From Sabellastarte sp. h YS-2021 (taxonomy: Eukaryota > Annelida > Polychaeta > Sabellida > Sabellidae): DNA of 64,000 nt. The stretch covers positions 161,619,609 through 161,683,608 of the forward strand of contig OZ024929.1 in the NCBI GenBank assembly GCA_964017235.1, in the 5' to 3' direction. A program made the position numbers and the translations under genes. Below the pieces are notes generated by a model. The model was given only the letters and a program-made list of their open reading frames with translations. It made no database searches and had not been told where the DNA came from. Shown here piece by piece: positions 1,564 to 62,590 of this stretch. How positions within the stretch are numbered: position 1 is the stretch's first letter; each line of letters begins with the position of its first letter.

Positions 1564-1602
1564 ATTATCTCCCGCCGGGCTTTAGCCCGGGAGGGAGATT
1601 AT
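1564..1602. other. Terminal hairpin of family 1 satellite element
   Basis: Arms ATTATCTCCCGCCGGGCT (1564-1581) and AGCCCGGGAGGGAGATTAT (1584-1602) pair over about 18 bases with a two-base loop and one or two mismatches. The same hairpin, slightly diverged, is found at 63613-63647. Confidence 0.75.
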
Positions 1603-2039
1603 GAAATGATGCCTGTGCGTGCGTGCGTGCGTGTGTGCGTGCGTTAGTTAGTCACGCAGATTCCTCCAAAACTACTACAGCTACAGATTTTTTGTAAATT
1701 AATTGTCCCAATGAATTTTCACGCCCTCGAAAATTTTTTTGGTTTTATGGACTTAGGCCTAAAGATAACTGAGTAATAGCTATCTTAGCTACTTGGAGTA
1801 AAGGGCTCATAACTCAAAAACTATTGCAGTTACAACTTTTTCTTCAAATATGTTGTTCAGCTACTTTGTCCTTAGCTATAAGATGGTACATAGTTTGGGT
1901 CCCATTGCATGCCATAAGTGAGTAATAGCTATTTTCTCATTTGTAGCTAAATAACAAAAGGAGTAAATGTCAAATATCTTCAAAAGTATTAGAGTTACAG
2001 AAATCTTTTCAAATATGTTGTTCATCTACTTTTTGGTAA

Positions 2040-3805
2040 GCTATCACATAGTAAAGTTTCAGACCTGTTGCACCTTGGATAGCTGAGTAATAGCTACTTT
2101 GAAATTCTGACTGTTGAGTAAAGCCATTGTAACTCCAAAACTATTGCAGTTAGAGTGTTTTCCTAAAATATGTTGTTCAGCTACTTTGTCCTTAGCTATA
2201 AGATGGTACATAGTTTGGGGTTCTATTGCATGCCATAAGTGAGTAATAGCTATTTTCTCATTTGTAGCTGGGGCCACGGTGGCAGAGTGGTAACACTCTC
2301 GCCTCCCACCTCTGCGGCCGGGGATCGATCCCCGTCATGGCCGTAAGTGGGAAAGCTGGTAGTTGCTTGCCGTTGGTCGGCAGTTTACAGTACACAACCC
2401 TAGCGAACTCTATGTACTGGTTTCCTCTGCCCTTCCAACTACCCGTCGTGATATGACCTGTACAGTGTTGAAAGCGACGTAAAACCCCAAATAAACAAAA
2501 TAAACAAATCATTTGTAGCTAAATAACAAAAGAAGTAAATGCCAAGTATCTTCAAAAGTATTACAGTTACAGAAATCTTTTCAAATATGTTATTCATCTA
2601 CTTTTGGGTAAGCTATCACATAATAAAGTTTCAGACCTGTTGCACCGTGGATAGCTGAGTAATAGCTACTTTGAAATTCCGACTGTTGAGTAAAGCCATT
2701 GTATCTCCAAAACTATTGCAGTTAGAGTGTTTTCCTAAAATATGTTGTTCAGCTACTTTGTCCTTAGCTATAAGATGGTACATAGTTTGGGGTTCTATTG
2801 CATGCCATAAGTGAGTAATAGCTATTTTCTCATTTGTAGCTAAATAACAAAAGAAGTAAATGCCAAATATCTTCAAAAGTATTAGAGTTACAGAAATCTT
2901 TTCAAATATGTTATTCATCTACTTTTGGGTAAGCTATCACATAGTTAAGTTTCAGACCTGTTGCACCATGGATAGCTGAGTAATAGCTACTTTCAAATTC
3001 CGACTGTTGAGTAAAGCCATTGTATCTCCAAAACTATTGCAGTTACAGTCTTTTCCTAAAATATGTTGTTCAGCTACTTTGTCCTTAGCTATAAGATGGT
3101 ACATAGTTTGGGGTTCTATTGCATGCCATAAGTGAGTAATAGCTATTTTCTCATTTGTAGCTAAATAACAAAAGAAGTAAATGTCAAATATCTTCAAAAG
3201 TATTAAAGTTAGTGAAATCTTTTCAAATATGTTGTCCATCTACTTTTTGGTAAGCTATCACATAGTAAAGTTTCAGACCTGTTGAACCTTTGATAGCTGA
3301 GTAATAGCTACTTTCAAATTCCGACGGTTGAGTAAAGCCATTGTAACTCCAAAACTATTGCAATTAGAGTGTTTTCCTAAAATATGTTGTTCAGCTACTT
3401 TGTCCTTAGCTATAAGATGGTACATAGTTTGGGGTTCTATTGCGTGCCATAAGTGAGTAATAGCTATTTTCTCATTTGTAGCTAAATAACAAAAGAAGTA
3501 AATGTCAAATATCTTCAAAAGTATTAAAGTTAGGGAAATCTTTTCAAATATGTTGTCCATCTACTTTTTGGTAAGCTATCACATAGTAAAGTTTCAGACC
3601 TGTTGAATCTTTGATAGCTGAGTAATAGCTACTTTGAAATTCTGACTGTTGAGTAAAGCCATTGTAACTCCAAAACTATTGCAGTTAGAGTGTTTGCCTA
3701 AAATATGTTGTTCAGCTACTTTGTCCTTAGCTATAAGATGGTACATAGTTTGGGGTTCTATTGCATGCCATAAGTGAGTAATAGCTATTTTCTCATTTGT
3801 AGCTA
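2040..3805. repeat. 321-bp tandem repeat (dimeric higher-order satellite)
   Basis: About four to five head-to-tail copies of a 321-bp unit; landmarks recur at 2631, 2952 and 3273. Each unit is itself two diverged subunits of about 160 bp. One carries AACTCCAAAACTATTGCAG and AGCTATAAGATGG, the other ATCTTCAAAAGTATT and AGCTATCACATAG. Each has the same order of pieces as the 133-bp monomers further right. Open frames on the minus strand recur once per unit and are by-products of the repeat. A SINE (2270-2508) interrupts the array. Confidence 0.9.
2270..2508 (+). mobile_element. tRNA-derived SINE with 12-bp target-site duplication
   Basis: The head has a pol III A-box-like segment (GGCAGAGTGGTAACAC) and a B box (GGGATCGATCCCCG) in tRNA-like spacing. 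The tail ends in an A-rich AATAAACAAAATAAACAAA. It is flanked by perfect 12-bp direct repeats TCATTTGTAGCT (2258-2269 and 2509-2520), which fixes both ends. The host sequence is the 321-bp satellite. A relative lies at 62975-63203. It encodes no protein. Confidence 0.92.
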
Positions 3806-5900
3806 ATTGAGAGCTTTCACTTGGTGAAGTTTCAGACCCTTAGCTAATTACTCACCTACTCAAAATGAGTAAATGCGAATTATCTCTAAAAGTATTGCAG
3901 ATAGCCAATTTTTCTCAACTCATTCACCTACTTTTGGAAGAGCTTTCACATGGTCAAGTTTCAGACCCGTAGCTAATTACTCAAAATGAGTAAATGCTAA
4001 TTATCTCTAAAAGTATTGCAGATAGCCAATTTTTCTCAAATAACTCATTCACCTACTTTTGGGAGAGCTTTCACTTGATGAAGTTTCAGACCTGTAGCTA
4101 ATTACTCACCTACTCAAAATGAGTAAATGCTAATTATCTCTAAAAGTATTGCAGATAGCCAATTTTTCTCAAATAACTCATTCACCTACTTTTGAGAGAG
4201 CTTTCACTTGGTGAAGTTTCAGACCTGTAGCTAATTATTCACCTACTCAAAATGAGTAAATGTGAATTATCTGTAAAAGTATTGCAGATAGCCAATTTTT
4301 CTCAAATAACTCTTTCACCTACTTTTGGAAGAGCTTTCACTTGGTGAAGTTTCACACCCGTAGCTAATTACTCACCTGCTCAAAATGAGTAAATGCGAAT
4401 CATCTCTAAAAGTATTGCAGATAGCCAATTTTTCTCAAATAACTCATTCACCTACTTTTCAGAGAGCTTTCACTTGGTGAAGTTTCAGACCTGTAGCTAA
4501 TTATTCACCTACTCAAAATGAGTAAATGCTAATTATCTCTAAAAGTATTGCAGATAGCCAATTTTTCTCAAATAACTCATTCACCTACTTTTGAAAGAGC
4601 TTTCACTTCATGAAGTTTCAGACCCGTAGCTAATTATTCACCTGCTGAAAATGAGTAAATGCTAATTATCTCTAAAAGTATTGCAGGTAGCCAATTTTTC
4701 TCAAATAACTCCTTCAGGTACTTTTGGAAGAGCTTTCACATGGTCAAGTTTCAGATCCGTAGCTAATTACTCACCTACTCAAAATGAGTAAATACGAATT
4801 ATCTCTAAAAGTATTGCAGATAGCCAATTTTCTCAAATAACTCGTTCATCTACTTTTGGGAGAGCTTTCACTTGGTAAAGTTTCAGACCCGTAGCTAATT
4901 ATTCACCTGCTGAAAATGAGTAAATGCTAATTATCTCTAAAAGTATTGCAGGTAGCCAATTTTTCTCAAATAACTCATTCATGTACTTTTGGGAGAGCTT
5001 TCACTTGGTGAAGTTTCAGACCCGTAGCTAATTGTTCACCTACTCAAAATGAGTAAATGCTAATTATCTCTAAAAGTATTGCGGATAGCCAATTTTTCTC
5101 ATATAACTCATTCGCCTACTTTTGGGAGAGCTTTCACTTGGTGAAGTTTCAGACCTGTAGCTAATTACTCACCTACTCAAAATGAGTAAATGCTAATTAT
5201 CTCTAAAAGGATTGCAGATAGCCATTTTTTGTCAAATAACTCATTCACCTACTTTTAGGAGAGCTTTCACTTGGTGAAGTTTCAGACCCATAGCTAATTA
5301 CTCACCTGCTCAAAATGAGTAAATGCTAATTATCTCTAAAAGTATTGCAGATAGCCAATTTTTCTCAAATAACTCATTCACCTACTTTTGGGAGAGCTTT
5401 CACATGGTGAAGTTTCAGCCCCATAGCTAATTACTCACCTGCTCAAAATGAGTAAATGCTAATTATCTCTAAAAGTATTGCAGATAGCCAATTTTTCTCA
5501 AATAACTCATTCATCTACTATTGGGAGAGCCATCACTTGGTGAAGTTTCAGACCCGTAGCTAATTATTCACCTACTCAAAATGAGTAAATGCTAATTATC
5601 CCTAGAAGTATTGCGGATAGCCTTCACATGGTGAAGTTCCAGACCCGTAGGTAATTACTCAGCTACTCAAAATGAGTAAATGCTAATTATCTCTAAAAGT
5701 ATTGCAGATAGCCAATTTTTCTCAAATAAGTCATTCACCTACTTTTGGGACAGCTTTCACTTGGTGAAGTTTCAGACCTGTAGCTAATTACTCACCTACT
5801 CAAAATAAGTAAATGCCTATTATCACTAAAAGTATTGCAGATAGCCAGTATTTCTCAAATAACTCATTCACCTACATTTTGGAGAAGTTTCACATGCTTA
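3806..5900. repeat. 133-bp satellite array, copy 1
   Basis: Around sixteen tandem units of about 133 bp, with occasional shortened units. Each contains GAGAGCTTTCACTTGGTG, AAGTTTCAGACC, TAGCTAATTACTCACC, AAATGAGTAAATGC and ATCTCTAAAAGTATTGCAG. The same satellite forms the body of the two elements at 51022-54537 and 58850-61510. No coding potential is seen. Confidence 0.92.
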
Positions 5901-7014
5901 AGTTTTTTTATGAATTTTTAAAATAAATTTTAATACATTAAAATTAATTAAATCATGCACTAAATCAATTATAACTTGAAAAGTACTGCATTTAGAGCAC
6001 TTTGTGCAAATATATTATGCAGCTACTTTTGGGTCAGCTATAACATAGTAAAATTTCAGACCTGTAGCTCATGGCATAGCTGAATAATAACTACTTTTAG
6101 GTTATCACTGTTGGGTAAATCACTTATAACTTGAAAACTTTTGCATTTACATTATTTAGTTTCAGTATGTTATTCACCTATTTTGAGGCAGCTATAACAT
6201 AGTAAAATTCCAGACCTGTGGCTCATTGCATAGCGGAGTAATAGCTACTTTGAAGTTCTTACTCAACACTAAATCATTTATAACTTGAAAAGTATTACAT
6301 TTAGAGCATTTTGTTAAAATATGTCATTCACCTACTTTTTCCGTAGCAACAACATGGTGAGTAACTTGGGTGTCTATCTGAATAGCTAAGTGAGTAATAG
6401 CTACTTTTGGGCTTTTCACTAACTTCCATCATGAGTAAAATCACTTGTAACTTGAAAACTATTGCATTTAGAGAATTTTGTGCAAATATGTTATTCACCT
6501 ACTTTTGGGTCAGCTATAACATACTAAAATTTCAGACCTCTAGCTCGTGCCATAGCTGAGTAATAGCTACTTTTGCCTTTGCCGGTGGATACATTTTGCA
6601 TCTGGCCACAGATGCATCCTTGGTCTAGTCTCTAAAAGTATTACAGGTGGGCAATTTCTTCTAAATAAGTCATTCACCTACTTTTGGGTGATCTACCACA
6701 TAGTGAAGTTGCAGAACTGTAGCTCTTTAGATGGCAGAGTAATAGCCACTAAAATAAGTAAATGTCTTGTATCTCTAAAAGTAGTACAGATAGGCTATTT
6801 CTTCTAAAGACGTGCTTCCCTACTTTGAGTTGATCTGCATAATGAAGTGGCAGAACTGTAGCTCTTTGGATGGCAAAGTAATAGCTACTAAAATGAGTAA
6901 ATGCCTTTTGTCTTTAAAAGTATTGCAATCAAACATTAAACTTGTCACTTCTACATGTGCCTCCATCTCGCAGGAAAATTTATATTCCACTATCTTTAGG
7001 ACATCTAATTTATA
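5901..7014. repeat. Diverged satellite monomers with an internal hairpin
   Basis: Units of about 150-170 bp related to the 133-bp and 321-bp repeats, recognisable from TATAACTTGAAAA, CAGACCTGTAGCTC and GAGTAATAGCTAC. At 6597-6616 there is a perfect 8-bp hairpin, TGCATCTG and CAGATGCA around the loop GCCA. It may mark the end of a separate element embedded in the array. Nothing coding is seen. Confidence 0.7.
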
Positions 7015-7028
7015 CGGCAGGAGATAAA

Positions 7029-10270: not shown

Positions 10271-11050
10271 CTAAAAAATCAATGCAATGATCTTTGGGAT
10301 TGTTGGCTGGCTGTACAGAAAGTTATTGTCTTTTCGGTTTGTCTTGACAAAGTCATAGCACAGGGATTTTACCCTCAGATATTCAAGAAAATTACTAATT
10401 TTAATATTGTATGTATTTTCAATTTCTACTAAACTCATAATGGTCCCGTTTATATCGACAATATCACCCACATATTTGATTCCTCCTTTAAACCACCTGG
10501 GCAAGTACAAAGTTAACCTTGATATTTTGGGATTATACCATATTGGTGTAAATAGTATGTCAGAACTAGTTTTTATGAAGTCATGTTCTGAAAAGTCACC
10601 CCATATAGATAGGACTTCTATCCAAAATTGGTTACTGATAATATGAGTCAAAGTTTTGCACCATACAGTTCCAAGTTCAACTAAACTTGAGACACTACAA
10701 ATAGTTTTCTGAAAGAGAATTAACCACGGAGAAGTGTACTGAGTGAAGAGTTTTTTGATCCATGTTAACTTGAGTGCTTTCATAAAAGCTCTAATATCTA
10801 CCATCCTTAGTCCCCCTTCTCTATAGTCTTGAATTATGGTAAGTCGCTTTATTTTATCTGGTTTACCTAACCAAATGAAATTATACATCAATTTTGACAA
10901 ATCTTTAAAAAAGTGGTCACCTGGGGATGGTATACTACTGAAAATATGATTAAATTGTGGAACAATAAAAGTTTTTAACACTGTAATTCTACCAAAGACA
11001 GTTAAGTTTCTCTTTCTCCAATTTGTCAATAATTTTTTTACATTGCTCAA
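10271..11050 (-). CDS. LINE reverse transcriptase C-terminal part (frameshifted)
   Basis: Continues the LINE protein after the frame change: WRKRNLTVFGRITVLKTFIV and FIWLGKPDKIKR match the thumb and post-RT region of this LINE group. It ends at 10271. Sequence with matching character (KWYYTHMVNQ, NTWDQIFTI) continues in a third frame to a stop at 10108-10110, and the switch again lies at a T/A homopolymer (about 10273-10278). The LINE coding region therefore has two frameshifts and almost no 3' UTR. Confidence 0.75.
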   Translation of the reverse strand: MSNVKKLLTNWRKRNLTVFGRITVLKTFIVPQFNHIFSSIPSPGDHFFKDLSKLMYNFIWLGKPDKIKRLTIIQDYREGGLRMVDIRAFMKALKLTWIKKLFTQYTSPWLILFQKTICSVSSLVELGTVWCKTLTHIISNQFWIEVLSIWGDFSEHDFIKTSSDILFTPIWYNPKISRLTLYLPRWFKGGIKYVGDIVDINGTIMSLVEIENTYNIKISNFLEYLRVKSLCYDFVKTNRKDNNFLYSQPTIPKIIALIF

Positions 11051-13460
11051 GTGCTGATGAGTAGTTTAAAGTTGGAATCTCTTCCAAATCAACAGAAAAA
11101 GATATTCCCAGGAGCTTAAATCTAGTTATTCCCCATTCTAGTCTATTTGTGACTTTTAACTTTTCTTTACAATGCTTTTTCCTTCCTATCCATACAAGTT
11201 TAGTTTTATTGGTATTTATTTTTAGACCGGAAAAAGAACCGAAAATTTCAATTGTATTCAATGCAGCCTGTAAGGAGCTCTGACTACCATCCAAAATCAG
11301 CGTAGTATCATCGGCAAATTGCGTAATTTTAATTTCTATTTCATCTACATATATTCCATTGATTTTTTTGTTCTTTTTTATAAGGTAATTTAAAATTTGT
11401 CCACATAAAATAAAGAGATAAGCAGCTATAGGATCTCCCTGTTTGCAACGGCGTTCAATTGAAATGAAATCTGATTTTACCCCAGCTTGTAGAACGCATG
11501 CCTTGATATTGTTGTTGAACATCTTTATCCAATGAATAAAACTCGTTCCAAAGTCGAAAAAGGTGAGAGTATTGTACATAAATTTCCATGATATTGAGTC
11601 AAACGCTTTTTCAAAATCAATCAACATCAACAGTCCATCCAGTTCCTTTACTTCAGTGTAATGCATTATGTCATATATTAATCTTGTTGTTTCACCGATG
11701 TATCGACCCTTAACAAAGCCAGTTTGATCCTGTGATATTAATTTATTTAATACAGTATTCATTCTTGCAGCAATTGCGGAAGACGCTAATTTATAGAGAA
11801 CACTAAGAAGAGAAATAGGACGCCAGTTTTTTATATTGTCTCTCGCTTTGTCTCCTTTTGGAATACAATTTATAATTGTTTGTCGCATTGAGATAGAAAG
11901 CATACCTTTCTCATAGCAATGATTTAGAGCATTGAGTACTAGATATTTTAACTTTACCCAAAATACTTTAAAAAATTCAGAAGGGAAGCCATCAATGCCT
12001 GGTGTCTTGTTATTTTTCATTTTTTTTAGGGCAATTCCCAGTTCGTCAATAGTTAATGGACCTTCCAAAGCAGTGGCCTCTTTTCTGGACAATTTCGCTA
12101 TATCGGTTTTTTCTAACATAGTTTCCAGATCAATATTGTCAATCTGATCATCCCTAGATTTAAAAAGATCAGCATAAAATTGCTTCACAAGGTTTAATAT
12201 GGCATTTTGTTCAAACACTGTTTCACCATTTTTAAGTGTAAGCTTTTTTATTGTTTTATCGATAAAGTTTTTTTTTTTGAGATTACAAAAATATTTTGTT
12301 GGTTTTTCACCTGATTGGAGCCATCGTGCTTTTGATCTTATCATGGATCCATTCATTTTAACCTTTCGTATTGTTTGCAATTGGATTTGTCTTATTTCTA
12401 AATTTTCATGATAATTTTCATCATGCGGATTTGATTCTATATTTTCAATTTCCTGAATTAGCTGACTTTCTTCTCTTGTAGCAGCTTTTTTCAGATTGAT
12501 TGAAAATTTAGTTGTGATATCCCTAATTTTTAATAGCATCATTTCAAGTAAGAGATCATATTCAATTACAAATTGCAAATCAAAATTACAATTTTCTTTT
12601 ACAAAGTCAGGATCATATACTGGAGAACAATATCTGAGTTTTACTTCATCAATTGTTTGATTTACTATATTTATATAGTCTATATTTTGGAGTAAACTAC
12701 AATTAAATTTCCATAATCCTCTACCACGCTTGAATGAACTAAGTTGAATGTTAATTTCTAATAAGGAATGATCTGAACGATAACCAGGATGGATTTTACA
12801 ATCACTAATTAGGTCTAGAAGAGATTCCGGACAGATGAAGTAATCTAAACGTGCCTGTTTAACAGGGTTTTTACGCCTCCAAGTATATTGTCTTAGCGTT
12901 GGGTTTATGATGCGGTAAGCGTCTTTTAAATTATAAATTTGCATAGTTTCTAATAAATGAAGTCTGGATTGTGGATTGTTGATGTTGACATAGTTATAGC
13001 TATCAATCTCAGGGTTAAGGATTAAATTTAAATCTCCACAAAGTAGGATATAATCTTGTTGATTCTCATCTACCAATTTTCTTATATTTTCAAAAAAACT
13101 TGGACAGTCCACATTTGGAGCATAGACATTAATCAGTCTGATGGAGACATTAGTAGTGCTGAAATCAAGAACCGTATAGTTTCCAGTTGTGTCAAATTCT
13201 GTATATATTATTTTATATTCAAAGTTATTTTTAAAAAGAACAGCAACTCCTCTGGAGTTTGTTTTATATCCATTTATGTAGCATTCACATTCAGATATTA
13301 AGTTCAATAGGTTCCCATCATTTGAGGTTAAATGGGTGTCTTGGAGACAGATAATGTTTGGTTTAAATCGTTTCATATAGTCTAAAACATCAGTTTGTTT
13401 TGATCTATCCCTTAAACCTTGACAATTTGCCGATAATACTTTTAGCTGGTCAACTAACAT
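10989..13460 (-). CDS. LINE endonuclease-reverse transcriptase, main part
   Basis: 823 codons. Residues 1 to about 240 form the apurinic endonuclease: LSANCQGL, CLQDTHLT, GDLNLIL, RLDYFI and YRSDHS are its ordered motifs. The reverse transcriptase follows, with KTPGIDGFPSEFF, IPKGDKARDNIKNWRPISLL, DFEKAFDSISW, RCKQGDPIAAYLF and the catalytic FADD in QFADDTTLIL. The residue after Gln in the second endonuclease motif is Asp where the family normally has the metal-binding Glu. The frame ends early at 10989. The expected continuation (WRKRNLTVFGRI) is in another frame at 10271-11050, and a seven-base T run (11033-11039, A on this strand) lies just where the frames change. The copy is therefore probably inactive. 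Confidence 0.88.
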   Translation of the reverse strand: MLVDQLKVLSANCQGLRDRSKQTDVLDYMKRFKPNIICLQDTHLTSNDGNLLNLISECECYINGYKTNSRGVAVLFKNNFEYKIIYTEFDTTGNYTVLDFSTTNVSIRLINVYAPNVDCPSFFENIRKLVDENQQDYILLCGDLNLILNPEIDSYNYVNINNPQSRLHLLETMQIYNLKDAYRIINPTLRQYTWRRKNPVKQARLDYFICPESLLDLISDCKIHPGYRSDHSLLEINIQLSSFKRGRGLWKFNCSLLQNIDYINIVNQTIDEVKLRYCSPVYDPDFVKENCNFDLQFVIEYDLLLEMMLLKIRDITTKFSINLKKAATREESQLIQEIENIESNPHDENYHENLEIRQIQLQTIRKVKMNGSMIRSKARWLQSGEKPTKYFCNLKKKNFIDKTIKKLTLKNGETVFEQNAILNLVKQFYADLFKSRDDQIDNIDLETMLEKTDIAKLSRKEATALEGPLTIDELGIALKKMKNNKTPGIDGFPSEFFKVFWVKLKYLVLNALNHCYEKGMLSISMRQTIINCIPKGDKARDNIKNWRPISLLSVLYKLASSAIAARMNTVLNKLISQDQTGFVKGRYIGETTRLIYDIMHYTEVKELDGLLMLIDFEKAFDSISWKFMYNTLTFFDFGTSFIHWIKMFNNNIKACVLQAGVKSDFISIERRCKQGDPIAAYLFILCGQILNYLIKKNKKINGIYVDEIEIKITQFADDTTLILDGSQSSLQAALNTIEIFGSFSGLKINTNKTKLVWIGRKKHCKEKLKVTNRLEWGITRFKLLGISFSVDLEEIPTLNYSSALEQCKKIIDKLEKEKLNCLW

Positions 13461-15076: not shown

Positions 15077-15077
<1 letters not shown>

Positions 15078-15139: not shown

Positions 15140-17900
15140 ACAAGCTTTGATTGTGTCCGGCCAGGGGTCAGCCATCATACAAACGACAATTAATGTGAAG
15201 AGTTGTGTCAGCCCCGGACTGGACCACAGCAATAACAGATGGCTTTTTAACTGGTTTTCATTGTCACCAGTCCGGACTACTGTCCGGAGGGACAGAAAAT
15301 GTTTGTCAGACTACCAAATATCCCAAATGTGGCACACAGTCTGCCTGTAGAGTCCAGACTAAATCTGTTTCGGGAACTTGGGAAACCTTGAGGGCTGGTA
15401 CCCTAGGTAGTACAAATGTTGAAGGAGGGCTACACTCTCCCTTTCTAGTCAAGATTAAACTTGACAGGGTCACCAAAAATCCATCAGCTTATGGACAAGA
15501 TGCAGTCGAGCCAGTTCAAAATCTCTGGGCTTCTTCAGCTGACCTCTCTTGGTTCCCAAAACAACACAGCCGTTGGAGACCTATTTTGGATCTGAACAAA
15601 CAGCCCAGGACATATCAAATTTCATGTCCAGGGTCGGACATACCAGTTCAAAGCACTGTCTTTCGATCTGTCCACTGCACCCATGGAGCCCACTGTAGTA
15701 GCAAAGGAGTTGAAACTGATGGCCATACTCAAGGGTATAATAATCCACCAGTACTTAGACGACTGGTTGGTAAAGCCACATCCCACCAGGTTTGTCTCCA
15801 GCATAAATCGAAACTGGAACCAAACGCGGGTCTTCGACCTTGTAGGTTACCAGTTCGACCTCATGGCCGGTCGGGTCTGACCTATACCGGGCCATTGGCA
15901 GAACCTTCAGGACAAACACTAGAAATACTGTCACTACCGGTTTGTTCGGTCCATCAGTTCATGTTTACTAACAGCCACAGGAAAGCAAGTTCACCTAGGT
16001 CGACTTCATAGGAGACCCATACAGTGGCATCTCAAAAAAAAACAAAAAAAACTGGAGGGTACCAGAGTCACTAGAAAAGGTGATTCCTATACCAAGGTGA
16101 TAGCACCCACATTTACAAGGGTGGTTGCAAGAGGACAATGTCCTTACAGCCCAACCATTACACCCAAATTAACTTGATCTGCAAATTTTACAGATTCATC
16201 AAAGCAGGGTAGGGCGCTCACTTAAACGAACACACTGCAGGAGGCACCTAGTCTTTCTAGCCTTACAAGAGTTCCAAGACCTCTGCATACACAAGATAGT
16301 ACTTGTAGAGACAGACAACACCACAGTGGTGTCATACATTAACAGGGAAGGAGGCATGAGGTCGGGCCCACTTTGTGCTTTACTATGGAGAATCTTGACC
16401 TGGTGCGCCAGAAATCAAGTAACTCTAAAAGCCCGACACATTCGAGGCCGGCTGAGTGTGGTCGCAGACAAGCTATCCAGGCTAGACAAGACCACCCAAA
16501 CAGAGTGGTCTCTCCTTCAGGAGGTCTTCCAAGCAATATGCAACAGGTGGCACCGGCCTCAAATAGACCTATTTGCCACGAGGTTGCCCTTGTTTGTGTC
16601 ACCGGTACCGGATCCCCTGGCCACAGCAGTGGATGCACTCAGTCTGCCATGGTAGGATCAGGAAGCATACACCTTCCCACTATCAGCCATATTGGGCAAA
16701 GCAGTGAGGTTGCAGGACTCCCCATGCAAGAGAATCATTCTGATTGCTCCGGGGTGGCCCATCATGCCTTGTTTTTGGGATCCAGTGGCCTTGTCCAGCC
16801 AAATCCCACTGAGCCTGCCCAATCTGCCCAACCTGTTGACCCAACCATTCAATCAGATCCCTCACAGAAATCTGACAAATCTTAATCTCGATGCACGGCT
16901 CCTGGAGCCTCAGAATTCGAGGAGCAGAGCTTCGCTGAGGCGGTGGCAACAAAAATTTGATTCTCCTCAAACGGGATCAACCAGATCAGTCTATGCGGCA
17001 AAGTGGGCCATTGTTACAAGTGGTGCGTCACTAATCAGGTGGACCTCAGGGTACCCTTGTAAAGTCAGTTGCTGACTTCCTTATGTACCTTATGAGGACA
17101 GGAAGATGCAGCCCAGCACCATTGATGGTTACAGTTCAGCCATTGCTGATAAACTGGGAAATTCACCCTTCAACAAGGACAAAAATCTTGCTCGTCTCCT
17201 GGATAGTTTCCACAGAGACAGACCCAAAGGCAGGAGGGGCATACCCTCCTGGAACTTTTCACTGGCCGTGCACCAGCTAAGACTCCATTTGATCCAATCA
17301 AGGAGGCCTCCTTGAAGCATTTGACCTTCAAGACGGTATTCCTCTTGGCCCTTGGGTCGGGCAAGCGCAGAAGTGAGATTCATGCTTGGCAAAAAACTGA
17401 TATATTGGACACCAATCCGATTGGTCAAAGGTGTCCCTGTATCCATCACCCAGCTTTCTATCCTAGAATCAGCTGGCCATAGAGGGTCCAGACAGTGTGA
17501 CCCCTGGGGTTATAACAGCCCTGGCCCCAACTCTGGATAGATTCCTCAAGTCTGACAGGTCCCTCTGTCCGGTCAGAGCATTGTGCTACTATTTGGACAG
17601 GACCTCAGACATCAGGCAGAATAAGGAGGTGGTTTTTGTCTCCTTTAAGAAAGGCTTCAACAAAGACATCTCACCTGCCACTATCTCCTCTTGGATCAAG
17701 CAGACTGTGATCCTATGTTATGAGCTCTCTGACCAGGAGGCCCACACTTTACATCAGGTTAAAGCCCATGATGTCAGGGCCTTTGCTGCTTCCAAGGTCT
17801 TCCAATCGGGAGTCTCCTTAGATCCAATCTTGTCAGCCTGCCACTGAAGTCACAATACACACAGTTCTATATGAAGGGCGGGGCTTGGGCTGATTCAGAG
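15140..17900 (+). mobile_element. DIRS A RT, RNase H, methyltransferase-like and recombinase region
   Basis: Decayed counterpart of the coding region of copy B. Reverse transcriptase matches lie at about 15320-15900 (YLDDWLV motif near 15750), RNase H at about 16140-16480, the methyltransferase-like segment at about 16540-16830 (RPQIDLFATR) and the tyrosine recombinase at about 16900-17900 (with the AHDVRAFAASK motif of the catalytic region). It has many breaks and is not functional. Confidence 0.8.
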
Positions 17901-18063
17901 CTTTACCAATTGGGCTCGGCAGTGGCTGCTCAACAGATCCACAAGTGGCCCTTAGATTCAGGAGATTTGTATATGCGCATAACAGTTCTTCATGTACATT
18001 AGAATTAAGTGTGGCGTGTTTCCTTCGGGAGGTTTATTTGCATTCTGGGACTGAACTCATCCC

Positions 18064-18107
18064 TCTCTTCCCCTACCTCAGAGCAGGTCTGCAAAAAAAG
18101 GGGGGGC
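18064..18107 (+). other. Conserved 3' non-coding tract of DIRS A
   Basis: CTCTTCCCCTACCTCAGAGC followed by an A-run and a G-run. The same tract is found in copy B at 41824-41872, and a shorter A/G-rich equivalent in copy C near 24340. Retention between copies suggests a role in replication of the family, possibly as a purine-rich priming site; that role is inference. Confidence 0.5.
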
Positions 18108-18687: not shown

Positions 18688-18891
18688 CATTTTTAGACAG
18701 GTGGCGTGTAACCAACCCACCTGTTAGATTGATGTGTCCGACGTCCATCCACATTTTCGTTTCCGGACCCTAACTCGAAAACGCTTTGTCCGATCGAATT
18801 CAAACTTGACAGGGAGATAGATCACCATCACAGCTAGGTTCCTTTCAAAATTGGTGAATGTTCTGTCTGTTCGTTTGTCTGTGTTTTGTCC
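18688..18891 (+). repeat. 150-bp tandem repeat with terminal hairpin, left part
   Basis: Begins with a hairpin (ACAGGTGG at 18697-18704 and CCACCTGT at 18717-18724). It continues with TTTCCGGACCCTAACTCG, AAAACGCTTTGTCCG and GACAGGGAGATAGATCACC. The same unit resumes at 25170 on the other side of DIRS copy C, so C inserted into this array. No gene. Confidence 0.75.
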
Positions 18892-25168: not shown

Positions 25169-25460
25169 TTTAATTTGGCTGTCCTTCAAAAATTTCAGTT
25201 TCCGGACTCTAACTCGAAAACGGTGTGTCCAATCGAATTCAAACTTGACAGGGAGATAGATCACCATCATAGCTAGGTTCCTTTTGAAATTGGTGTAATT
25301 CCGTCCGTTCATTTGTCCGTCAAAATTTCCGTTTGCGGACTCTAACTCGAAAACGCTTTGTCCAATCGAGTTCAAACTTGACAGGGAGATACATTACCAT
25401 CATAGCTAAGTTGCTTTCGAAATTGGTGTAATTCTGTCCTTTCGTTTGTCCATTTATAGC
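25169..25460 (+). repeat. 150-bp tandem repeat, right part
   Basis: Two units with period about 150: CGGACTCTAACTCGAAAACG, TGTCCAATCGA, AAACTTGACAGGGAGATA and CATCATAGCTA recur in each. Continuation of the array at 18688-18891. Open frames here on the minus strand are repeat by-products. Confidence 0.85.
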
Positions 25461-31965: not shown

Positions 31966-32395
31966 GATACCACCTGGGCTAGTTGCTTTTTTTAAACTGG
32001 TGCCAATCAGTGTGTCCAACTGTCAGTACATCTCTACATTTTGGATTCTGGACATTCTGAAATTTGACAGGGTGGTAGGACCCCACCCGGTTGCTTTCAA
32101 AATTATTGCCATTTTAAAAACAACATGGCTGCCATGGCTACCATCTTGAAATTCCATTTCTGGACTCTAACTTGAAGACACTTCTGCCTCTCGATTTCAA
32201 ACGTGACAGAGCGGTAGGACAGCAATCAGATAAAGTTGCTTTGAAATTCATAAACTTGGAATTTGTTGCGGAACCTTATTCTTGTTATCGAGTGCGCAAC
32301 TCACCGTTTTTTAATCTATAACCCCATTTTGTTATCAATTAGCAGGCAGAACTTAGATACCATTTAACATTTAATTTATGATATGTTCTTAAACT
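31966..32395. repeat. Diverged copies of the 150-bp tandem repeat
   Basis: GGACTCTAACTTGAAGACAC, TTTCAAACGTGACAGAGCGGT and an earlier copy (CTGAAATTTGACAGGGTGGT) correspond to the GGACTCTAACTCG and AAACTTGACAGGGAGAT blocks at 25169-25460. Strongly decayed. Confidence 0.55.
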
Positions 32396-49000: not shown

Positions 49001-52000
49001 TACTTAATGACAAAAAAATTTGTTAAAAAATCTCTGGATACAGACAGAGATCTAAATCACCACAAAAGTTTAGTCGTCCTGTTCTTGTGCCATTGTTGAC
49101 ATTTCCTGAAAATGTCATCAAAATCCGTCCACAACTTTCACCCCACCACCTTTTAAGGCTGTGTGGGTATTATTTTCACCCATGGTGTCCAGATGAGTGG
49201 GCAGGTTGTGGGAAAAAGCTTGTCCGGGCTGTATCTCAGAAACCCTGAGCTGTAAGATGTTGATACTTCGTAGGGACATTGGTTGGGGGTGTAGGTGTGC
49301 AACGTCATGGTGTGACCTTGATTGTATCCTTGGACGAAATTCGGGGATACTTAGGATTCAGTACGGTCATGCCGCCACCACTGCCGCAGAGATTTCATTT
49401 CGGACGCGATAACTTTAAAAATATTTTAGTTTGACCTTTCAATTCGGTATGTGGGTATGTATGGGCAATGCCACAAACACTATTGTTTTGTGACCATGAC
49501 CTTCAATTTCAAGGTGACTGGTGGCCTCTTTATGGTCAGATTTTGGCCATTTTTTCAGATTTTGGCCCAGTTCTCATATACAGAAAGTTAGATCATCCTA
49601 TGGATGGTATATATAATACATATATTTGTCCTCTCAAAGCATGCAGAAATTTGACCTTGAAGCTCTTCATTGAAGGTCATCAGCAGACCGCCAAAGTACC
49701 TCACCGAGGACATTTTTGGCCCTTTTTTTTGAGATATTTTAATTACACACTTAATGCACTGAAAGCATGAAAACATAATACTCTATGTGTCACGCTTCAA
49801 CCATGTCCCGTCCGGGGATATACTGCATCGAGATGCAATATCTAGTTTGACCTTTGACCTTGCTGTAGTGACCTAGAGGTTGAAAATCTTATCTGAGCTA
49901 ATGTGTAGGAAGTTAATACTTGGTAGGGACATTGGTTTTGGGGTGTAGGTGTGCAACATCATGGTGTGACCTTGATTTGACCTTTTGACCTTAGAAACTT
50001 GTCTAGGCTATATCTCATAAATTGTAAGGTGTAGAAGGTTGATACTTGGTAGGGACAGTGGTTGAGGCTGTAGCTGTGCAATGTCATGGTGTGACCCTGA
50101 TTTGGCCTTTGACCTTGTTGTAGTTACCTTGGTCTTTAAAATCTTGTCCAGGCTATATCTCAGAAACTGTAAGGTGTAAGAAGTTAATACTTGGCAGGGA
50201 TATTAGTTAGGGGATGTAGGTGTGCAGCATCATGATATGGTCTTGATTTGACCTTTGATCTTGCCATAATGACCTTGACCTTAAAATCTTGTGCGGGCTA
50301 TATCTCGGAAACTATAAGATGTAAGAAGTTGATACTTGATAGGGACATTGGTTAGAGTGTGTAGGTGTGCAACATCATGTCAAACTGTTTGCTCTGAAAG
50401 TCTCCTGATCTTTGTACGCTTATCATTTATTCTGTGTCTCATGGTGTTGAAAACTATTTCCCTGGGCTGTGGGATACAGGCATCTCCGATGCTGTTTTAT
50501 GAGTTGTTTTACAAACAAACAGACAAAAGCACAATGTAGTAACATATGTTGCTTGATGGAGGTGATTAAGAACTATAACCCTTTGCTTTGCAGCATTAAA
50601 GACATGTTCCATGAAAGAGCCTGGTTGACTTCTGACATTTTCTCAGTTCAAGTAAGTGACATTGGTATATGCGCATAATTTGTAAAATATTGAAAAGCAT
50701 CAGTAAAACTAGTAATTCAAAAATAAAATGAAAGTTGACCTCTTGAAGAAGAACTGTAGGAAGTAGATTTCTCCTTCAAGGAGAAAAGTAGATTGATATA
50801 TGTGGGTTTAACATCACTTTCAACACCTGAAATAGGTCATATAACAATGGGCAGTTGAGGCGATGGAGGAAAGCAGTGCTGACTAATTGTTCAAGATTCT
50901 GCCTTTAAGAAGCAGTCACTCAGCAGCTACCACTTTTGCACTTCAGGATTTGAACCTTCCACCTGAGAGGTGGTATGGGAGGGTTGTTACCCACCATGCC
51001 ACTGGGCCTCCTGTTCATAGAGGGTCATTAAGCGTCCCGCAAGGGACGCTTGTTTGTGTATGGGAGAGCTTCTGGCTCCGCCGGCTCCGCATTTTGTTTT
51101 CCTTATAACTCTGTAACCGTTAGGCGGATTCTTTTCAAATTTGGCAGGTTTAGGCAGTAGCCTTGGGGAATTTTTTTGAATATGCTGCAGTGACATTTCA
51201 ACCAATCAGAGAGGTCACATGACCAAAAATGTCTTTTTTCGATGGGGAAGCTTGTCCGGATGATAACTTGAAAGGAATTTTATCAATTCACCTGAAACTT
51301 GGCAAATGCATTCATTCTATTAAAATCTGGAAATCATTAGATTTTGGCATTGATTGGTCAAGAAATGGCCGAGTAATTAATGATTAATTAATCATTACGA
51401 ATTTTCCAAATAAGGAAAACACAAAAATGCTTATATCTCGAAAACCGTGCTAGATAGAGCGATTTCGACGAAATTTTTGACCCACAGGGTATCTCTGCGG
51501 AGTAGTTTTCCCAATTTTCAAAAAATTTTTCTCTCGCCCAGAATGGCGGCCATTTTGAATTTTCGAAATTTTCGCAAAAATTGCAAAACACAAAAATGCT
51601 TATATCTCAAAAACCGTGCTAGACAGCAATTTCGACAAAATTTTTGACCCGCAGGATATCTCTGCGGAGTACTTTTCCCAATTTTCAAAAAATTTTTGTC
51701 TCGCCAAAAATGGCGGCCATTTTGAATTTTCGAAATTTTCGCAAAAATTGCAAAACACAAAAATGCTTATATCTCGAAAACCGTGCTAGATAGAGCGATT
51801 TCGACGAAATTTTTGACCCGCAGGGTATCTCTGCAGAGTAGTTATCCCAATTTTGAAAAAAAAATTTTCTCGCCAAAAATGGCGGCCATTTTGAATTTTT
51901 GAATTTTTGCGCAAAAATTGCAAAACACAAAAATGCTAATATTTCGAAAACCGTGCTACATAGAGTGATTTCGACGAAATTTTTTATCTTCAGGGTATCT

Positions 52001-55000
52001 CTGCAGAGCACCTATCCCAAAGAGCTTTCACTTGGTGAAGTTTCAGACCCATAGCTAATTGCTCACCTACTCAAAATGAGTAAATGCGAATTACCTCTAA
52101 AAGTATTGCAGATGGCCAATTTTTCTCAAATAACTCATTCACCTACTTTTGGAAGAGCTTTCACATGGTGAAGTTTCAGACCCATAGCCAATTACTCACC
52201 TACTCAACATGAGTAAATGCGAATTATCTCTAAAAGTATTGCAGATAGCCAATTTTTCTCAAATAACTCATTCACCTACTTTTGGGAGAGCTTTCACATG
52301 GTGAAGTTTCAGACCCATAGCTAATTATTTACCTACTCAAAATGAGTAAATGCTAATTATCTGTAAAAGTATTGCGGATACCTAATTTTTATCAAATAAC
52401 TCATTCATCTACTTGTGGGAGAGCTTTCACATGGTGAAGTTTCAGACCCATAGCTAATTACTCACCTACTCAAAATGAGTAAATGCGAATTATCTCTAAA
52501 AGTATTGCAGATAGCCAATTTTTCTCAAATAACTCATTCACCTACTTTTGGGAGAGCTTTCACTTGGTGAAGTTTCAGACCCATAGCTAATTACTCACCT
52601 ACTCAAAATGAGTAAATGCGAATTATCTCTAAAAGTATTGCAGATAGCCAATTTTTCTCAAATAACTCATTCACCTACGTTTGGGAGAGCTTTCACTCTG
52701 TGAAGTTTCAGACCCATAGCTAATTACTCACCTACTCAAAATGAGTAAATGCGAATTATCTCTAAAAGTATTGCAGATAGCCAATTTTTCTCAAATAACT
52801 CATTCACCTACTTTTGGGAGAGCTTTCACTCTGTGAAGTTTCAGACCCATAGCTAATTACTCACCTACTCAAAATGAGTAAATGCGAATTATCTCTAAAA
52901 GTATTGCAGATAGCCAATTTTTCTCAAATAACTCATTCACCTACTTTTGGCAGAGCTTTCACTTGGTGAAGTTTCAGACCCATAGCTAATTACTCACCTA
53001 CTGAAAATGAGTAAATGTGAATTATCTCTAAAAGTATTGCAGATAGCCAATTTTTCTCAAATAACTTATTCACCTACTTTTGGGAGAGCTTTCACTTGGT
53101 GAAGTTTCAGACCCATAGCTAATTACTCACCTACTCAAAATGAGTAAATGCGAATTATCTCAAAAAGTATTGCAGATAGCCAATTTTTCTCAAATAACTC
53201 ATTCACCTACTTTTGGGAGAGCTTTCACTTGGTGAAGTTTCAGACCCATAGCTAATTACTCGTCTACTCAAAATGAGTAAATGCGAATTATCTCTAAAAG
53301 TATTGCAGATAGCCAATTTTTCTCAAATAACTCATTCACCTACTTTTGGGAGAGCTTTCACTTGGTGAAGTTTCAGACCCATAGCAAATTACTCACCTAC
53401 TCAAAATGAGTAAATGCGAATTATCTCTAAAAGTATTGCAGATAGCCAATTTTTCTCAAATAACTCATTCACCTACTTTTGGGAGAGCTTTCACATGGTG
53501 AAGTTTCAGACCCATAGCTAATTATTCACCTACTCAAAATGAGTAAATGTGAATTATCTCTAAAAGTATTGCAAATAGCCAATTTTTCTCAAATAACTCA
53601 TTCACCTACTTTTGGGAGAGCTTTCACTCTGTGAAGTTTCAGACCCATAGCTATTTATTCACCTACTCAAAATGAGTAAATGCGAATTATCTGTAAAAGT
53701 ATTGCGGATACCCAATTTTTATCAAATACTCATTCATCTACTTGTGGGAGAGCTTTCACATGGTGAAGTTTCAGACCCATAGCTAATTACTCACCTACTC
53801 AAAATGAGTAAATGTTAATTATCTCTAAAAGTATTGCAGATAGCCAATTTTTCTCAAATAACTCATTCACCTACTTTTGGGAGAGCTTTCACTTGGTGAA
53901 GTTTCAGACCCATAGATAATTATTCACCTACTCAAAATGAGTAAATGTGAATTATCTCTTAATAGTATTGCAGATAGCCAATTTTTCTCAAATAACTCAT
54001 TCACCTACTTTTGGAAGACCTTTCACACACGAAAATGAAAAATTGTGAATATCTCGGAAAAGCTATTTCTTCTGCTTTAATGCTCGGCGGGAGATACACA
54101 CCACGGCAGTGGTCTTGACAAAAAATTTTGTCTCCCCAAAAATGGTGGCCATTTTGAATTTTCAAAGTTTTTGCAAAACACAAAAATGCTTATATCTCGA
54201 AAACCATGCTATATGGAGTGAACTCAACAAAATTTTGAACCTGCTGGGTATCTCTGCAGAGTAGCCATGCCAATTTTCAAAATATTTTTGTCTCGCCAAA
54301 TATAGCGGACATTTTTAATTTTTTTATTTTTTGCAAAACACAAAAATGCTTATATCTTGAAAACTGTGCTAGATAGAGCAGACTGCGCTGACTTTGGTTG
54401 CCACAACAGTATAAGGCTAGAAACGAAGCATTTTCTTAATACTTTAGCACTCACCTTTATATCCTTTTCGGGACGCTTTGTTTTTGCTATGCAAAAACAT
54501 TATCTTTTTTTTTTGCGAGCGATCCTCTAGTTTATATTGACCCTGCTATTTACAAATCCTGATCAAGTGGTCAACTCCTTGTGACCTCATTGGACTTCAC
54601 TAGAGATGGCATCATAGCTCGCGATATCGTGGATCTTTCGAGGTGCATTATTAATGGACGATATCGAGAAGTTCCGTTGATGGGCGATAATATCGTCATT
54701 GAAATAAATAAACAAACATGCAATATACTACCAACCTAAAATGCCATATTCCAACAAATATCCATAATCCCCAACAACATATAACAAAAAACTTCACATT
54801 TTTCATTATAAAATGACGACAATGTAACAAATTTTCTGATTGGCTAATGGGGTGTGTGACCTTTCAACTCCAGCAACAGGAAGTAGACAGGAAGTGAAAA
54901 AACGAAATGAAAACAAGTATTCTAAACTGCATTATTTTTTTAAAAAACAACAAAATTGGAGTATTTTTACAATATTTTATGTTAGTTTACTGTTTTAATA

Positions 55001-57617: not shown

Positions 57618-57899
57618 TATGGGAGTCAAATTTGGCAGGTTTAGGCAGTAGCCTTGGGGAATTTTTTTGAATATGCTGCAGTGACATTTCAACCAATCAG
57701 AGAGGTCACATGACCAAAAATGTCTTTTTTCGATGGGGAAGCTTGTCCGGATGATAACTTGAAAGGAATTTTATCAATTCACCTGAAACTTGGCAAATAC
57801 ATTCATTCTATTAAAATCTGGAAATCATTAGATTTTGGCATTGATTGGTCAAGAAATGGCCGAGTAATTAATGATTAATTAATCATTACGAATTTTCCA

Positions 57900-58850
57900 A
57901 ATAAGGAAAACACAAAAATGCTTATATCTCGAAAACCGTGCTAGATAGAGCGATTTCGACGAAATTTTTGACCCGCAGGGTATCTCTGCGGAGTAGTTTT
58001 CCCAATTTTCAAAAAAATTTTTGTCTCGCCCAAAATGGCGGCCATTTTGAATTTTCGAAATTTTCGCAAAAATTGCAAAACACAAAAATGCTTATATCTC
58101 AAAAACCGTGCTAGATAGAGCAATTTCGACAAAATTTTTGACCCGCAGGATATCTCTGCGGAGTACTTTTCCCAATTTTCAAAAAAATTTTATCTCGCCA
58201 AAAATGGCGGCCATTTTGAATTTTCGAAATTTTCGCAAAAATTGCAAAACACAAAAATGCTTATATCTCAAAAACCGTGCTAGATAGAGCAATTTCGACG
58301 AAATTTTTGACCCGCAGGGTATCTCTGCAGAGTAGTTATCCCAATTTTGAAAAAAATTTTGTCTCGCCAAGAATGGCGGCCATTTTGAATTTTCGAAATT
58401 TTCGCAAAAATTGTAAAACATAAAAATGCTTATATCTCGAAAACCCTGCTAGATAGAGCGATTTCGACAAAATTTTTGACCCGCAGGGTATCTCTGCAGA
58501 GTAGCCATGCCAATTTTCAAACAAAAAATTTCTCCCAAAAAATGGCGGCCATTTTGAATTTTCGAATTTTTCGCAAAATTGCAAAACACAAAAATGCTTA
58601 TATCTCGAAAACCGTGCTAGAAAGAGCGATTTCGACGAAATTTTTGACCCACTGGGTATCTCTGCAGAGTAGCCATGCCAATTTTCAAAAAAATTTTCTC
58701 TTGCCAAAAATGGCGGCCATTTTGAATTTTCGAATTTTTGCGCAAAAATTGCAAAACACAAAAATGCTAATATTTCGAAAACCTTGCTACATAGAGCGAT
58801 TTCAACGAAATTTTTTATCTTCAGGGTATCTCTGCAGAGCAGCTATCCCA
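57900..58850. repeat. 168-bp tandem repeat, copy 2
   Basis: Five to six units with the same blocks as 51420-52016. Open frames on both strands recur per unit and are not genes. Confidence 0.92.
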
Positions 58851-61510
58851 AAGAGCTTTCACTTGGTGAAGTTTCAGACCCATAGCTAATTGCTCACCTA
58901 CTCAAAAAGAGTAAATGCGAATTACCTCTAAAAGTATTGCAGATGGCCAATTTTTCTCAAATAACTCATTCACCTACTTTTGGAAGAGCTTTCACATGGT
59001 GAAGTTTCAGACCCATAGCCAATTACTCACCTACTCAAAATGAGTAAATGCGAATTATCTCTAAAAGTATTGCAGATAGCCAATTTTTCTCAAATAACTC
59101 ATTCACCTACTTTTGGGAGAGCTTTCACATGGTGAAGTTTCAGACCCATAGCTAATTATTTACCTACTCAAAATGAGTAAATGCTAATTATCTGTAAAAG
59201 TATTGCGGATACCCAATTTTTATCCAATAACTCATTCATCTACTTGTGGGAGAGCTTTCACATGGTGAAGTTTCAGACCCATAGCTAATTACTCACCTAC
59301 TCAAATGAGTAAATGCGAGTTATCTCTAAAAGTATTGCAGATAGCCAATTTTTCTCAAATAACTCATTCACCTACTTTTGGGAGAGCTTTCACTTGGTGA
59401 AGTTTCAGACCCATAGCTAATTACTCACCTACTCAAAATGAGTAAATGCGAATTATCTCTAAAAGTATTGCAGATAGCCAATTTTTGTCAAATTAATCAT
59501 TCACCTACTTTTGGGAGAGCTTTCACTTGGTGAAGTTTCAGACCTATAGCTAATTACTCACCTACTCAAAATGAGTAAATGCGAATTATCTCTAAAAGTA
59601 TTGCAGATAGCCAATTTTTCTCAAATAACTCATTCACCTACTTTTGGGAGAGCTTTCACTTGGTGAAGTTTCAGACCCATAGCTAATTACTGACCTACTC
59701 AAAATGAGTAAATGCGAATTATCTCTAAAAGTATTGCAGATAGCCAATTTTTCTCAAATAACTCATTCACCTACTTTTGGCAGAGCTTTCACATGGTGAA
59801 GTTTCAGACCCATAGCTAATTACTCACCTACTGAAAATGAGTAAATGTGAATTATCTCTAAAAGTATTGCAGATAGCCAATTTTTCTCAAATAACTCATT
59901 CACCTACTTTTGGGAGAGCTTTCACTTGGTGAAGTTTCAGACCCATAGCTAATTACTCACCTACTCAAAATGAGTAAATGCGAATTATCTCTAAAAGTAT
60001 TGCAGATAGCCAATTTTTCTCAAATAACTCTTTCACCTACTTTTGGGAGAGCTTTCACTTGGTGAAGTTTCAGACCCATAGCTAATTACTCACCTACTCA
60101 AAATGAGTAAATGCGAATTATCTCTAAAAGTATTGCAGATAGCCAGTTTTTCTCAAATTAATCATTCACCTACTTTTGGGAGAGCTTTCACTTGGTGAAG
60201 TTTCAGACCCATAGCTAATTACTCACCTACTCAAAATGAGTAAATGCGAATTATCTCTAAAAGTATTGCAGATAGCCAATTTTTCTCAAATAACTCATTC
60301 ACCTACTTTTGGGAGAGCTTTCACTTGGTGAAGTTTCAGACCCATAGCTAATTACTCACCTACTCAAAATGAGTAAATGCGAATTATCTCTAAAAGTATT
60401 GCAGATAGCCAATTTTTCTCAAATTAATCATTCACCTACTTTTGGGAGAGCTTTCACTTGGTAAAGTTTCAGACCCAAAGCTAATTACTCGTCTACTCAA
60501 AATGAGTAAATGCGAATTATCTCTAAAAGTATTGCAGATAGCCAATTTTTCTCAAATAACTCTTTCACCTACTTTTGGGAGAGCTTTCACTTGGTGAAGT
60601 TTCAGACCCATAGCTAATTACTCGCCTACTCAAAATGAGTAAATGCGAATTATCTCTAAAAGTATTGCAGATAGCCAGTTTTTCTCAAATTAATCATTCA
60701 CCTACTTTTGGGAGAGCTTTCACTTGGTGAAGTTTCAGACCCATAGCTAATTACTCACCTACTCAAAATGAGTAAATGCGAATTATCTCTAAAAGTATTG
60801 CAGATAGCCAATTTTTCTCAAATAACTCATTCACCTACTTTTGGGAGAGCTTTCACTTGGTGAAGTTTCAGACCCATAGCTAATTACTCACCTACTCAAA
60901 ATGAGTAAATGCGAATTATCTCTAAAAGTATTGCAGATAGCCAATTTTTCTCAAATTAATCATTCACCTACTTTTGGGAGAGCTTTCACTTGGTAAAGTT
61001 TCAGACCCAAAGCTAATTACTCGTCTACTCAAAATGAGTAAATGCGAATTATCTCTAAAAGTATTGCAGATAGCCAATTTTTCTCAAATAGCTCATTCAC
61101 CTACTTTTGGGAGAGCTTTCACTTGGTGAAGTTTCAGACCCATAGCTAATTATTCACCTACTCAAAATGAGTAAAGGTGAATTATCTCTAAAAGTATTGC
61201 AGATAGCCAATTTTTCTCAAATAACTCATTCACCTACTTTTGGGAGAGCTTTCACTCTGTGAAGTTTCAGACCCATAGCTATTTATTCACCTACTCAAAA
61301 TGAGTAAATGCTAATTATCTGTAAAAGTATTGCGGATACCCAATTTTTATCAAATACTCATTTATCTACTTGTGGGAGAGCTTTCACATGGTGAAGTTTC
61401 AGACCCATAGCTAATTACTCACCTACTCAAAATGAGTAAATGCGAATTATCTCTAAAAGTATTGCAGATAGCCAATTTTTCTCAAATAACTCATTCACCT
61501 AATTTTGGAA
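58851..61510. repeat. 133-bp satellite array downstream of the gene
   Basis: About twenty units. A block of four units (532 bp) is duplicated: AGCCAGTTTT at 60141 and 60673, AACTCTTTC at 60025 and 60557, and AGACCCAAAG at 60471 and 61003 are each exactly 532 bases apart. Confidence 0.95.
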
Positions 61511-62030
61511 GACCTTTCACACACGAAAATGAAAAATTGTGAATATCTCGGAAAAGCTATTTCTTCTGCTTTAATGCTCGGCGGGAGATACACACCACGG
61601 CAGTGTGGTCTTGACAAAAATTTTTGTCTCCCCAAAAATGGTGGCCATTTTGAATTTTCAAAGTTTTTGCAAAACACAAAAATGCTTATATCTCGAAAAC
61701 CGTGCTATATGGAGTGAACTCAACAAAATTTTGGACCTGCTGGGTATCTCTGCATAGTAGCCATGCCAATTTTCAAAATATTTTTGTCTCGCCAAATATA
61801 GCCGACATTTTTAATTTTTTTAATTTTTGCAAAACACAAAAATGCTTATATCTTGAAAACCATGCTAGATAGAGCAGACTGCACTGACTTTGGTTGCCAC
61901 AACAGTATAAGGATAGAAACGAAGCATTTTCTTAATACTTTAGCACTCACCTTTATATCCTTTTCGGGACGCTTTGTTTTTGCTATGCAAAAACATTATC
62001 TTTTTTTTTTTGCGAGCGATCCTCTAGTTG

Positions 62031-62590
62031 ATCCTAGAGGTTTGGGATGATAAACCAACCTGTAGGAAATCATGGGGTGGGAATCTTTTGGTGTGGTCAG
62101 ATTTGACCTTCAATGACCCCTCCTTCAAGGTCAAACAAGGATAGCCAAACTTAAAAGTGCTTATAACTCGCTTATTATTGGTCCCAGAGGTTTGGTATGG
62201 TAAACAGACAGGAAATCATGGGCTGTGAATCTGTTGATATGGTCCAATTTGACCTTGGAACCCTCCTTCAAGGTCAAATGAGGATAGCGAAAATTGAAAG
62301 TGCCTACAACTCGCTTATTAATGGTGACAGAGATTTGGGATGGTAAACCATCCCATAGGAAATCATTGGCTCGGAATCTTTTGGTATGGTCAGATTTGAC
62401 CTTTGGACCCCTCCTTCAAGGTCAAATGAGGACAGCCAAGCTTAAAAGGGCTTATAACTCATTTATAATTGGTCCTAGAGGTTTGGAATGGTAAACCGTA
62501 GGAAATCATGGGCTGGGAATGTATTTGTGTGGTTAGATTTGACCTTGGACCCCTTCTTCAAGGTCGAATGAGGATATTGCATTTGTAGTA
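62031..62590. repeat. ~145-bp tandem repeat
   Basis: Three to four units with AGAGGTTTGGGATGGTAAAC, GGAAATCATGGGCTGGGAAT, GGTCAGATTTGACC, CCCTCCTTCAAGGTCAAATG and CTTATAACTCGCTTATTATT. The repeat in intron 2 on either side of DIRS copy B is the same family. Confidence 0.88.

Follow-up and report, generated by a model that had tools for sequence, protein, structure and literature searches.

The window analysed here is a stretch of 64,000 nucleotides of the Sabellastarte sp. genome (C3:161619609-161683608; the genome comprises 1.79 Gb in 647 contigs). It was compared with a sample of twenty 10-kb and eight 4-kb stretches taken from eight long contigs. All window features described below lie on the forward strand unless stated otherwise. 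Reverse-transcriptase frames (PF00078) were found at 10992-13460 (reverse strand), 32382-33470 and 46393-48471; the first of these also has an endonuclease domain, as non-LTR retroelements have. A frame of 176 codons (42862-43389) encodes a pyridoxal-phosphate enzyme domain (PALP, 3e-45). A duplication of about 2.5 kb (15599-18106 and 39219-41866; 79% identical over the longest stretch) overlaps a 981-codon open frame (38497-41439), which had no Pfam match at 0.001. Two copies of another sequence (2271-2478 and 62977-63188; 76% identical) have, by eye, the look of a tRNA-derived SINE.

The window also carries tandem arrays of several families. Arrays of the A superfamily, with units of 165, 321, 133, 154, and 139 bp, occupy positions 1810-6922 and are interrupted by the first of the SINE-like copies; the module described below is weak in them (TRF, clustering, profiles). 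Ahead of these arrays are a terminal hairpin, ATTATCTCCC ... GGGAGATTAT with one mismatch (1564-1602; read by eye), assigned to a HINE-like carrier of this superfamily, and behind the hairpin a GTGC microsatellite (1615-1644; TRF). A second ATTATCTCCC-type hairpin with a GTGC-like microsatellite was seen by eye at 63613-63670. The B145 family is represented by an array with modules (49985-50379; TRF, HMM) and by a module in the first B145 unit (49229-49275; HMM, 39.7 bits), upstream of which an eroded hairpin was seen by eye near 49140. The C-family array (143-147 bp units; 62028-62576) has only TATAACTCG and the bases upstream of it in common with the module (TRF, profiles).

Tandem arrays of period 80-500, with the module present or absent, accounted for 27,167 of the 200,000 bases (13.6%) of the 10-kb set. 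Arrays of about 2-23 units occurred in 13 of these 20 stretches, and the module was not in every array. Array units of the window and the 10-kb set, when pooled, fell into 18 clusters, a single one of which takes in the window arrays of 321, 165, 154, 139, and 133 bp (3809, 52021, 58852).

According to the original prediction, repeats of different period share a TATAACTCGAAAA-like core. Profiles were built from 11 seeds from the window and two sample loci. The window yielded 23 matches of at least 10 bits and the 232-kb sample 70, part of them being the seeds and their own families; the reversed sequences gave 0 and 0. In leave-one-out profiles, five units belonging to four clusters scored strongly: B145 (14.3 bits), E168 (9.2), F133 (12.8), D139 (10.4), and D435 (22.3), and for each of them none of 200 single-base shuffles scored as high. 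The A superfamily was weaker, with 5.6 bits in A321 (0/200 shuffles), 2.3 in A160 (6/200), and -0.1 in A133 (178/200). Further values were 8.3 bits in G157, on the other strand (1/200), 3.3 in I127 (2/200), and 1.4 in C481 (26/200); C147, C158, and H192 had no match with the leave-one-out profile. The same was true for eight of nine other arrays, the ninth being N104 (-0.0 bits; 188/200). At width 20, a motif test with one unit from each of six clusters placed the core in register in every unit and outscored 60 of 60 shuffles. The degenerate core TATAWCTCRRAAAC occurs 123,734 times in the genome (61,811 + 61,923) and its reversal 207 times (96 + 111), an excess of about 600-fold. The shared core is real, yet narrower than predicted: it holds for the 145-, 168-, 133b-, and 139/435-bp repeats, is weak in the 321/154/133a superfamily, and is partial in the 143-147 bp family. 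Additionally, an array of about 20-bp units like ATATCTCAAAAAATTGA (L009:1788-2468) is near the core word alone and possibly unrelated.

The second, loosely similar block predicted for several families also belongs to the shared module, which has two parts: TATAWCTCRRAAAC and, past some 19 variable bases, AAAYTTGRCAGG. Except for E, where there is an insertion, and for a single copy (54051) with one base fewer, the seeds align gap-free across core, interior, and second block. Mean pairwise identity among eight lineages, picked for their fit to the 19-nt frame, reached 0.72 for the core, 0.57 for the second block, and 0.44 for the interior, against 0.30-0.41 for the flanks and a chance level of 0.27; E is outside this set and a ninth single copy (L014) was not counted. 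Among these lineages the flanks are near chance and the stretch between the blocks is partly alike. With the gap free to vary, it measured 19 nt in 93 of 100 listed places for an F-type pattern and in 94 of 100 for a D435-type pattern; these counts refer to copies, not to independent events. In the window and loci, a stricter threshold gave a gap of 19 in 71 of 98 paired matches versus 2 of 5 in the reversed control, and a looser one gave 74 gap-19 matches versus 5. Genome-wide, the bipartite patterns had 6,503 and 3,101 matches, and their reversed controls none. The module of the E168 array has a gap of 25 nt instead of 19. No claim of novelty is made for either the fixed gap or the array phase described below.

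The module is also found singly, in several unlike carriers, with a terminal hairpin and, in most cases, a microsatellite some 50-100 nt ahead of it. By-eye reading of 20 first modules and of L063 revealed the following hairpins ahead of them: AAGCGTCCC (51030), TATATCCCC (L026, L041, L028), TACCCCACAGCCC (L013, L020, L021), ATTACCTC with GTCT (L020 at 871), ACAGGTGG (18697), and CCAGCATTTATGCTG (L063); the B and D carriers were read at their 5' end only. For 28 first modules, which include several copies per family, the fold energy of the 150 nt upstream was -13.3 versus -11.0 for the 150 nt downstream (p 0.025), and was also below that of shuffles (p 0.004). Folds of -10 or below were found upstream in 19 and downstream in 14 of these cases, and many of the 28 have no clear upstream hairpin. 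In L041 (C11:69208214 region), a TATATCCCC-type hairpin and a module stand where the Helitron_like_N stretch of a Helitron copy ends, an arrangement that would fit the insertion of a HINE at this point.

The 5' starts of arrays are phase-locked to the core (16 arrays, several copies per family among them; Rayleigh p 3.5e-4), and 10 of the 16 start within one-fifth of a period from it, within the approximate boundaries set by the repeat finder. These are 18 arrays minus two at locus edges, with two 133-bp rows retained that do no more than touch a module of the E carrier. Array ends, in the same test, were not clearly locked to the core (p 0.064).

HINE anatomy was found in one carrier. This E-type HINE copy 1 (51029-54531) consists of a 5' subTIR with inverted repeat, a microsatellite, a central array, a 3' subTIR, and a palindrome, in this order. 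The 5' subTIR AAGCGTCCC at 51030 is followed after 4 nt by GGGACGCTT, giving AAGCGTCCC-GCAA-GGGACGCTT (51030-51051), of which exact copies exist in the genome. The left-flank microsatellite is made of GGCTCCGCC-like units whose number varies among copies. Behind it are a single module with a 19-nt gap (51104-51148; score 29.4, best reversed 6.1) and, about 158 bp downstream, a second, degenerate module with the same gap (51262-51306; 18.7, best reversed 6.1). The E168 array with its 25-nt-gap module follows (51416-52020; TRF, HMM), and a 133-bp A-superfamily array (52021-54026; TRF, self-comparison) is nested in it. The 3' subTIR GGGACGCTT, the complement of the 5' one, is at 54470, and with the palindrome GTTTTTGC-TAT-GCAAAAAC it spans 54470-54498; both copies in the window have the palindrome 33 nt before the end. 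Copy 2 (57626-62028) is truncated at its 5' end, shares about 96% identity with copy 1, and adjoins the 143-bp array on its 3' side. Its 133-bp array (58852-61520) is nested at the same place in the E168 array, which indicates that an element with a satellite inside a satellite has moved or been duplicated.

The E-type 5' hairpin has 2,965 + 2,968 exact copies in the genome and none in the reversed control. The exact E core word was present within 900 bp of 20 of the 21 E-type hairpins listed in C1:0-10.21 Mb. TT precedes the hairpin in all 38 copies examined, one of which (L065) is of uncertain orientation, and T follows CTCTAGT at the 3' end of both window copies. Judged from these flanking bases of filled sites, the E carrier is inserted between T and T.

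The F133 carrier offers a link to Helitrons. The hairpin ACAGGTGG ... CCACCTGT (18697-18724; sequence, fold energy) is its likely 5' end, followed by the module of a single F133 unit (18769-18815; HMM, 40.4 bits). An F133 array of two units (25180-25451; TRF, HMM), with modules at 25208 and 25341, is succeeded directly by a 3' tail (25454-25640) that aligns to L063:774-961 with 162 of 188 positions identical (86%). The match in L063 sits about 0.5 kb past the point where a 2245-codon Helitron_like_N frame is reckoned to end; the reading covered L062 and L063, which are 4 kb apart. The likeness ends at the same base in both; beyond it, L063 has a C158-like repeat and the window other DNA. An Exo_endo_phos frame in L063, at 2811 and past the shared tail, probably belongs to another element. 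Helitron_like_N matches number 24 genome-wide. By this alignment, the F133 carrier has its 3' tail in common with a Rep-coding element.

Constraint on the core within families was measured as the share of circular shifts with a diversity not exceeding that of the core, in nine unit sets, two of which (A160 and A133) overlap. The shares were 0.60 (A321), 0.50 (A160), 0.70 (A133), 0.50 (B), 0.50 (C), 0.36 (D139), 0.27 (E), 0.09 (F; 8 units), and 0.37 (G; 4 units). Over this range of 0.09-0.70, there is no clear sign that the core varies less than other parts of the unit. The expectation that it would be more conserved than its surroundings is borne out across lineages, where core identity exceeds that of the flanks, but not within families. 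Array monomers accordingly look like neutral copies, and selection, if any, would act on the source elements.

Since the module also occurs just behind the left end of rolling-circle-type elements, many of the satellites are best read as multiplied element insides. The arrays are most likely central repeats of non-autonomous Helentrons, and we infer that the remaining arrays also lie in HINE carriers. A carrier would comprise a terminal hairpin, a short microsatellite, and the bipartite module, in which the core and second block are separated by about 19 nt. The repeat array would begin at the module, so that each monomer receives a copy of it, while the remainder of the unit is replaced or drifts. 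Retention of the module may reflect a cis requirement of the source elements, such as in rolling-circle re-initiation or strand switching, and not descent alone. As a whole, the explanation that many satellite families are central tandem repeats of HINEs moved by Helentrons, with the module kept for a cis need of the source elements, is one we hold with good though not high confidence. Points against it are the lack of clear core constraint within families, the 25-nt gap in E, and the C and 133a families, which have part of the module at most.

The strongest competitor, which retains everything but the cis role, is descent only: the module would be the slowest-decaying stretch of one ancient HINE central repeat, now without function. 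Core diversity that is not reduced within families agrees with this, and the partly alike interior suggests one ancestor. Plain decay, however, predicts something other than a well-preserved core with a mostly 19-nt gap among carriers whose hairpins differ and whose flanks are near chance. We give descent alone somewhat less than an even chance. The original prediction had named two origins, a single ancestor with a strongly retained core or a functional site for a replication initiator or DNA-binding protein, and each was partly right. A core alike amid near-chance flanks supports retention from a common source. The single copies near the 5' ends of unlike carriers, mostly with the 19-nt gap, had not been described in the original prediction; they suggest that the module is a cis-acting part of the carriers and not a site at which a host protein binds satellites. 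A test for ongoing constraint found none.

It appears improbable that the module is left over from coding sequence or from a structured RNA, such as a ribozyme or, read in reverse, the 3' end of a non-LTR retrotransposon. The forward frame 0 is open in seven of nine modules, which is weak evidence for 15 codons, and in each of the remaining five frames stops occur in 5-8 of the nine. The whole window had no Rfam match at the gathering threshold, and the one match in 49100-54600 (E 0.84) was far under its own family's cut-off. A resemblance to lepidopteran retrotransposon ends beside GTCT-like microsatellites may speak for this origin. Such microsatellite families have been tied to RTE elements (PMC2887409), and the accessible text of that paper has none of the sought sequence words in print.

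Slightly less probable still is a host DNA-binding protein, a centromeric or chromatin factor, that maintains the site in every monomer. A bipartite site with near-fixed spacing would suit such a protein, as would the units of 133-169 bp in the window, which are near nucleosome length. Against it are the absence of extra core constraint in the monomers, the single sites at element ends, and the origin of the array-bearing stretches from several contigs. Chance likeness among AT-rich words is very improbable in view of the excess over reversed patterns and the 70 sample matches versus none: at widths 14 and 20, an 11-unit motif test including doubtful families did not clearly exceed its shuffles, but the leave-one-out profiles rule chance out for families B, D, E, and F, though not for C and 133a.

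If a mobile-element module explains what is common to unrelated satellite families, the way satellites arise and are named in such genomes could be followed back to a single element class, and the module would open the formation of tandem arrays by Helentrons to testing. A bolder version, which we regard as speculative and rather unlikely, makes the module a Helentron replication cis site recognised across very distant hosts, one that licenses movement and sets the start of the tandem unit; unrelated satellites would then converge on the module because only module-bearing DNA was multiplied.

In the Drosophila element INE-1, the microsatellite is followed by a stretch resembling the module, likewise with a gap of 19 nt. 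The arrays resemble the bivalve Cg_HINE, Cg170/HindIII, BIV160, and pearl (CvA) repeats, which form short arrays of about 160-170-bp units in elements with a 5' subTIR, inverted repeat, microsatellite, 3' subTIR, and palindrome (PMC7492417, PMC5139131). Helitron-borne satellites in oysters have been supported (PMC8268682, PMC11136912), and the anatomy of HINE and DINE-1 elements has been described (PMC4067079, PMC2374699). Satellite-like arrays of oyster HINEs have monomers that are dissimilar save for two conserved segments (PMC7492417), and the same is reported for BIV160 and Cg170 (PMC5139131); the likeness to the module is one of description. Two BIV160 primers (PMC5139131), taken as primers and not as the conserved segments, did not clearly match the core, being outscored or equalled by 349 and 1961 of 2000 shuffles. 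The subTIRs of the E carrier (9-10 bp) are shorter than the 11-15 bp of published HINEs (PMC7492417, PMC4067079). Drosophila DINE-1/INE-1 has in common a 5' block interrupted by a GTCY microsatellite, along with central repeats, a 3' stem-loop, and a TT insertion preference (PMC2374699, PMC4067079). It differs in that its central repeats reportedly lack homology among species and that its named 90-bp core includes a (TA)4 repeat (PMC2374699, PMC4067079). Metaseiulus HINEs have subTIRs near both ends, a 3' palindrome, T-rich insertion sites, and, in some copies, tandem repeats (PMC4067079). They reportedly have neither the inverted repeat nor the core sequence of DINE-1, whereas the E-type carrier has an inverted repeat (PMC4067079). 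Satellites as the insides of elements are thus already known from oysters and Drosophila, and what is added here is a fuller description of the module they share.
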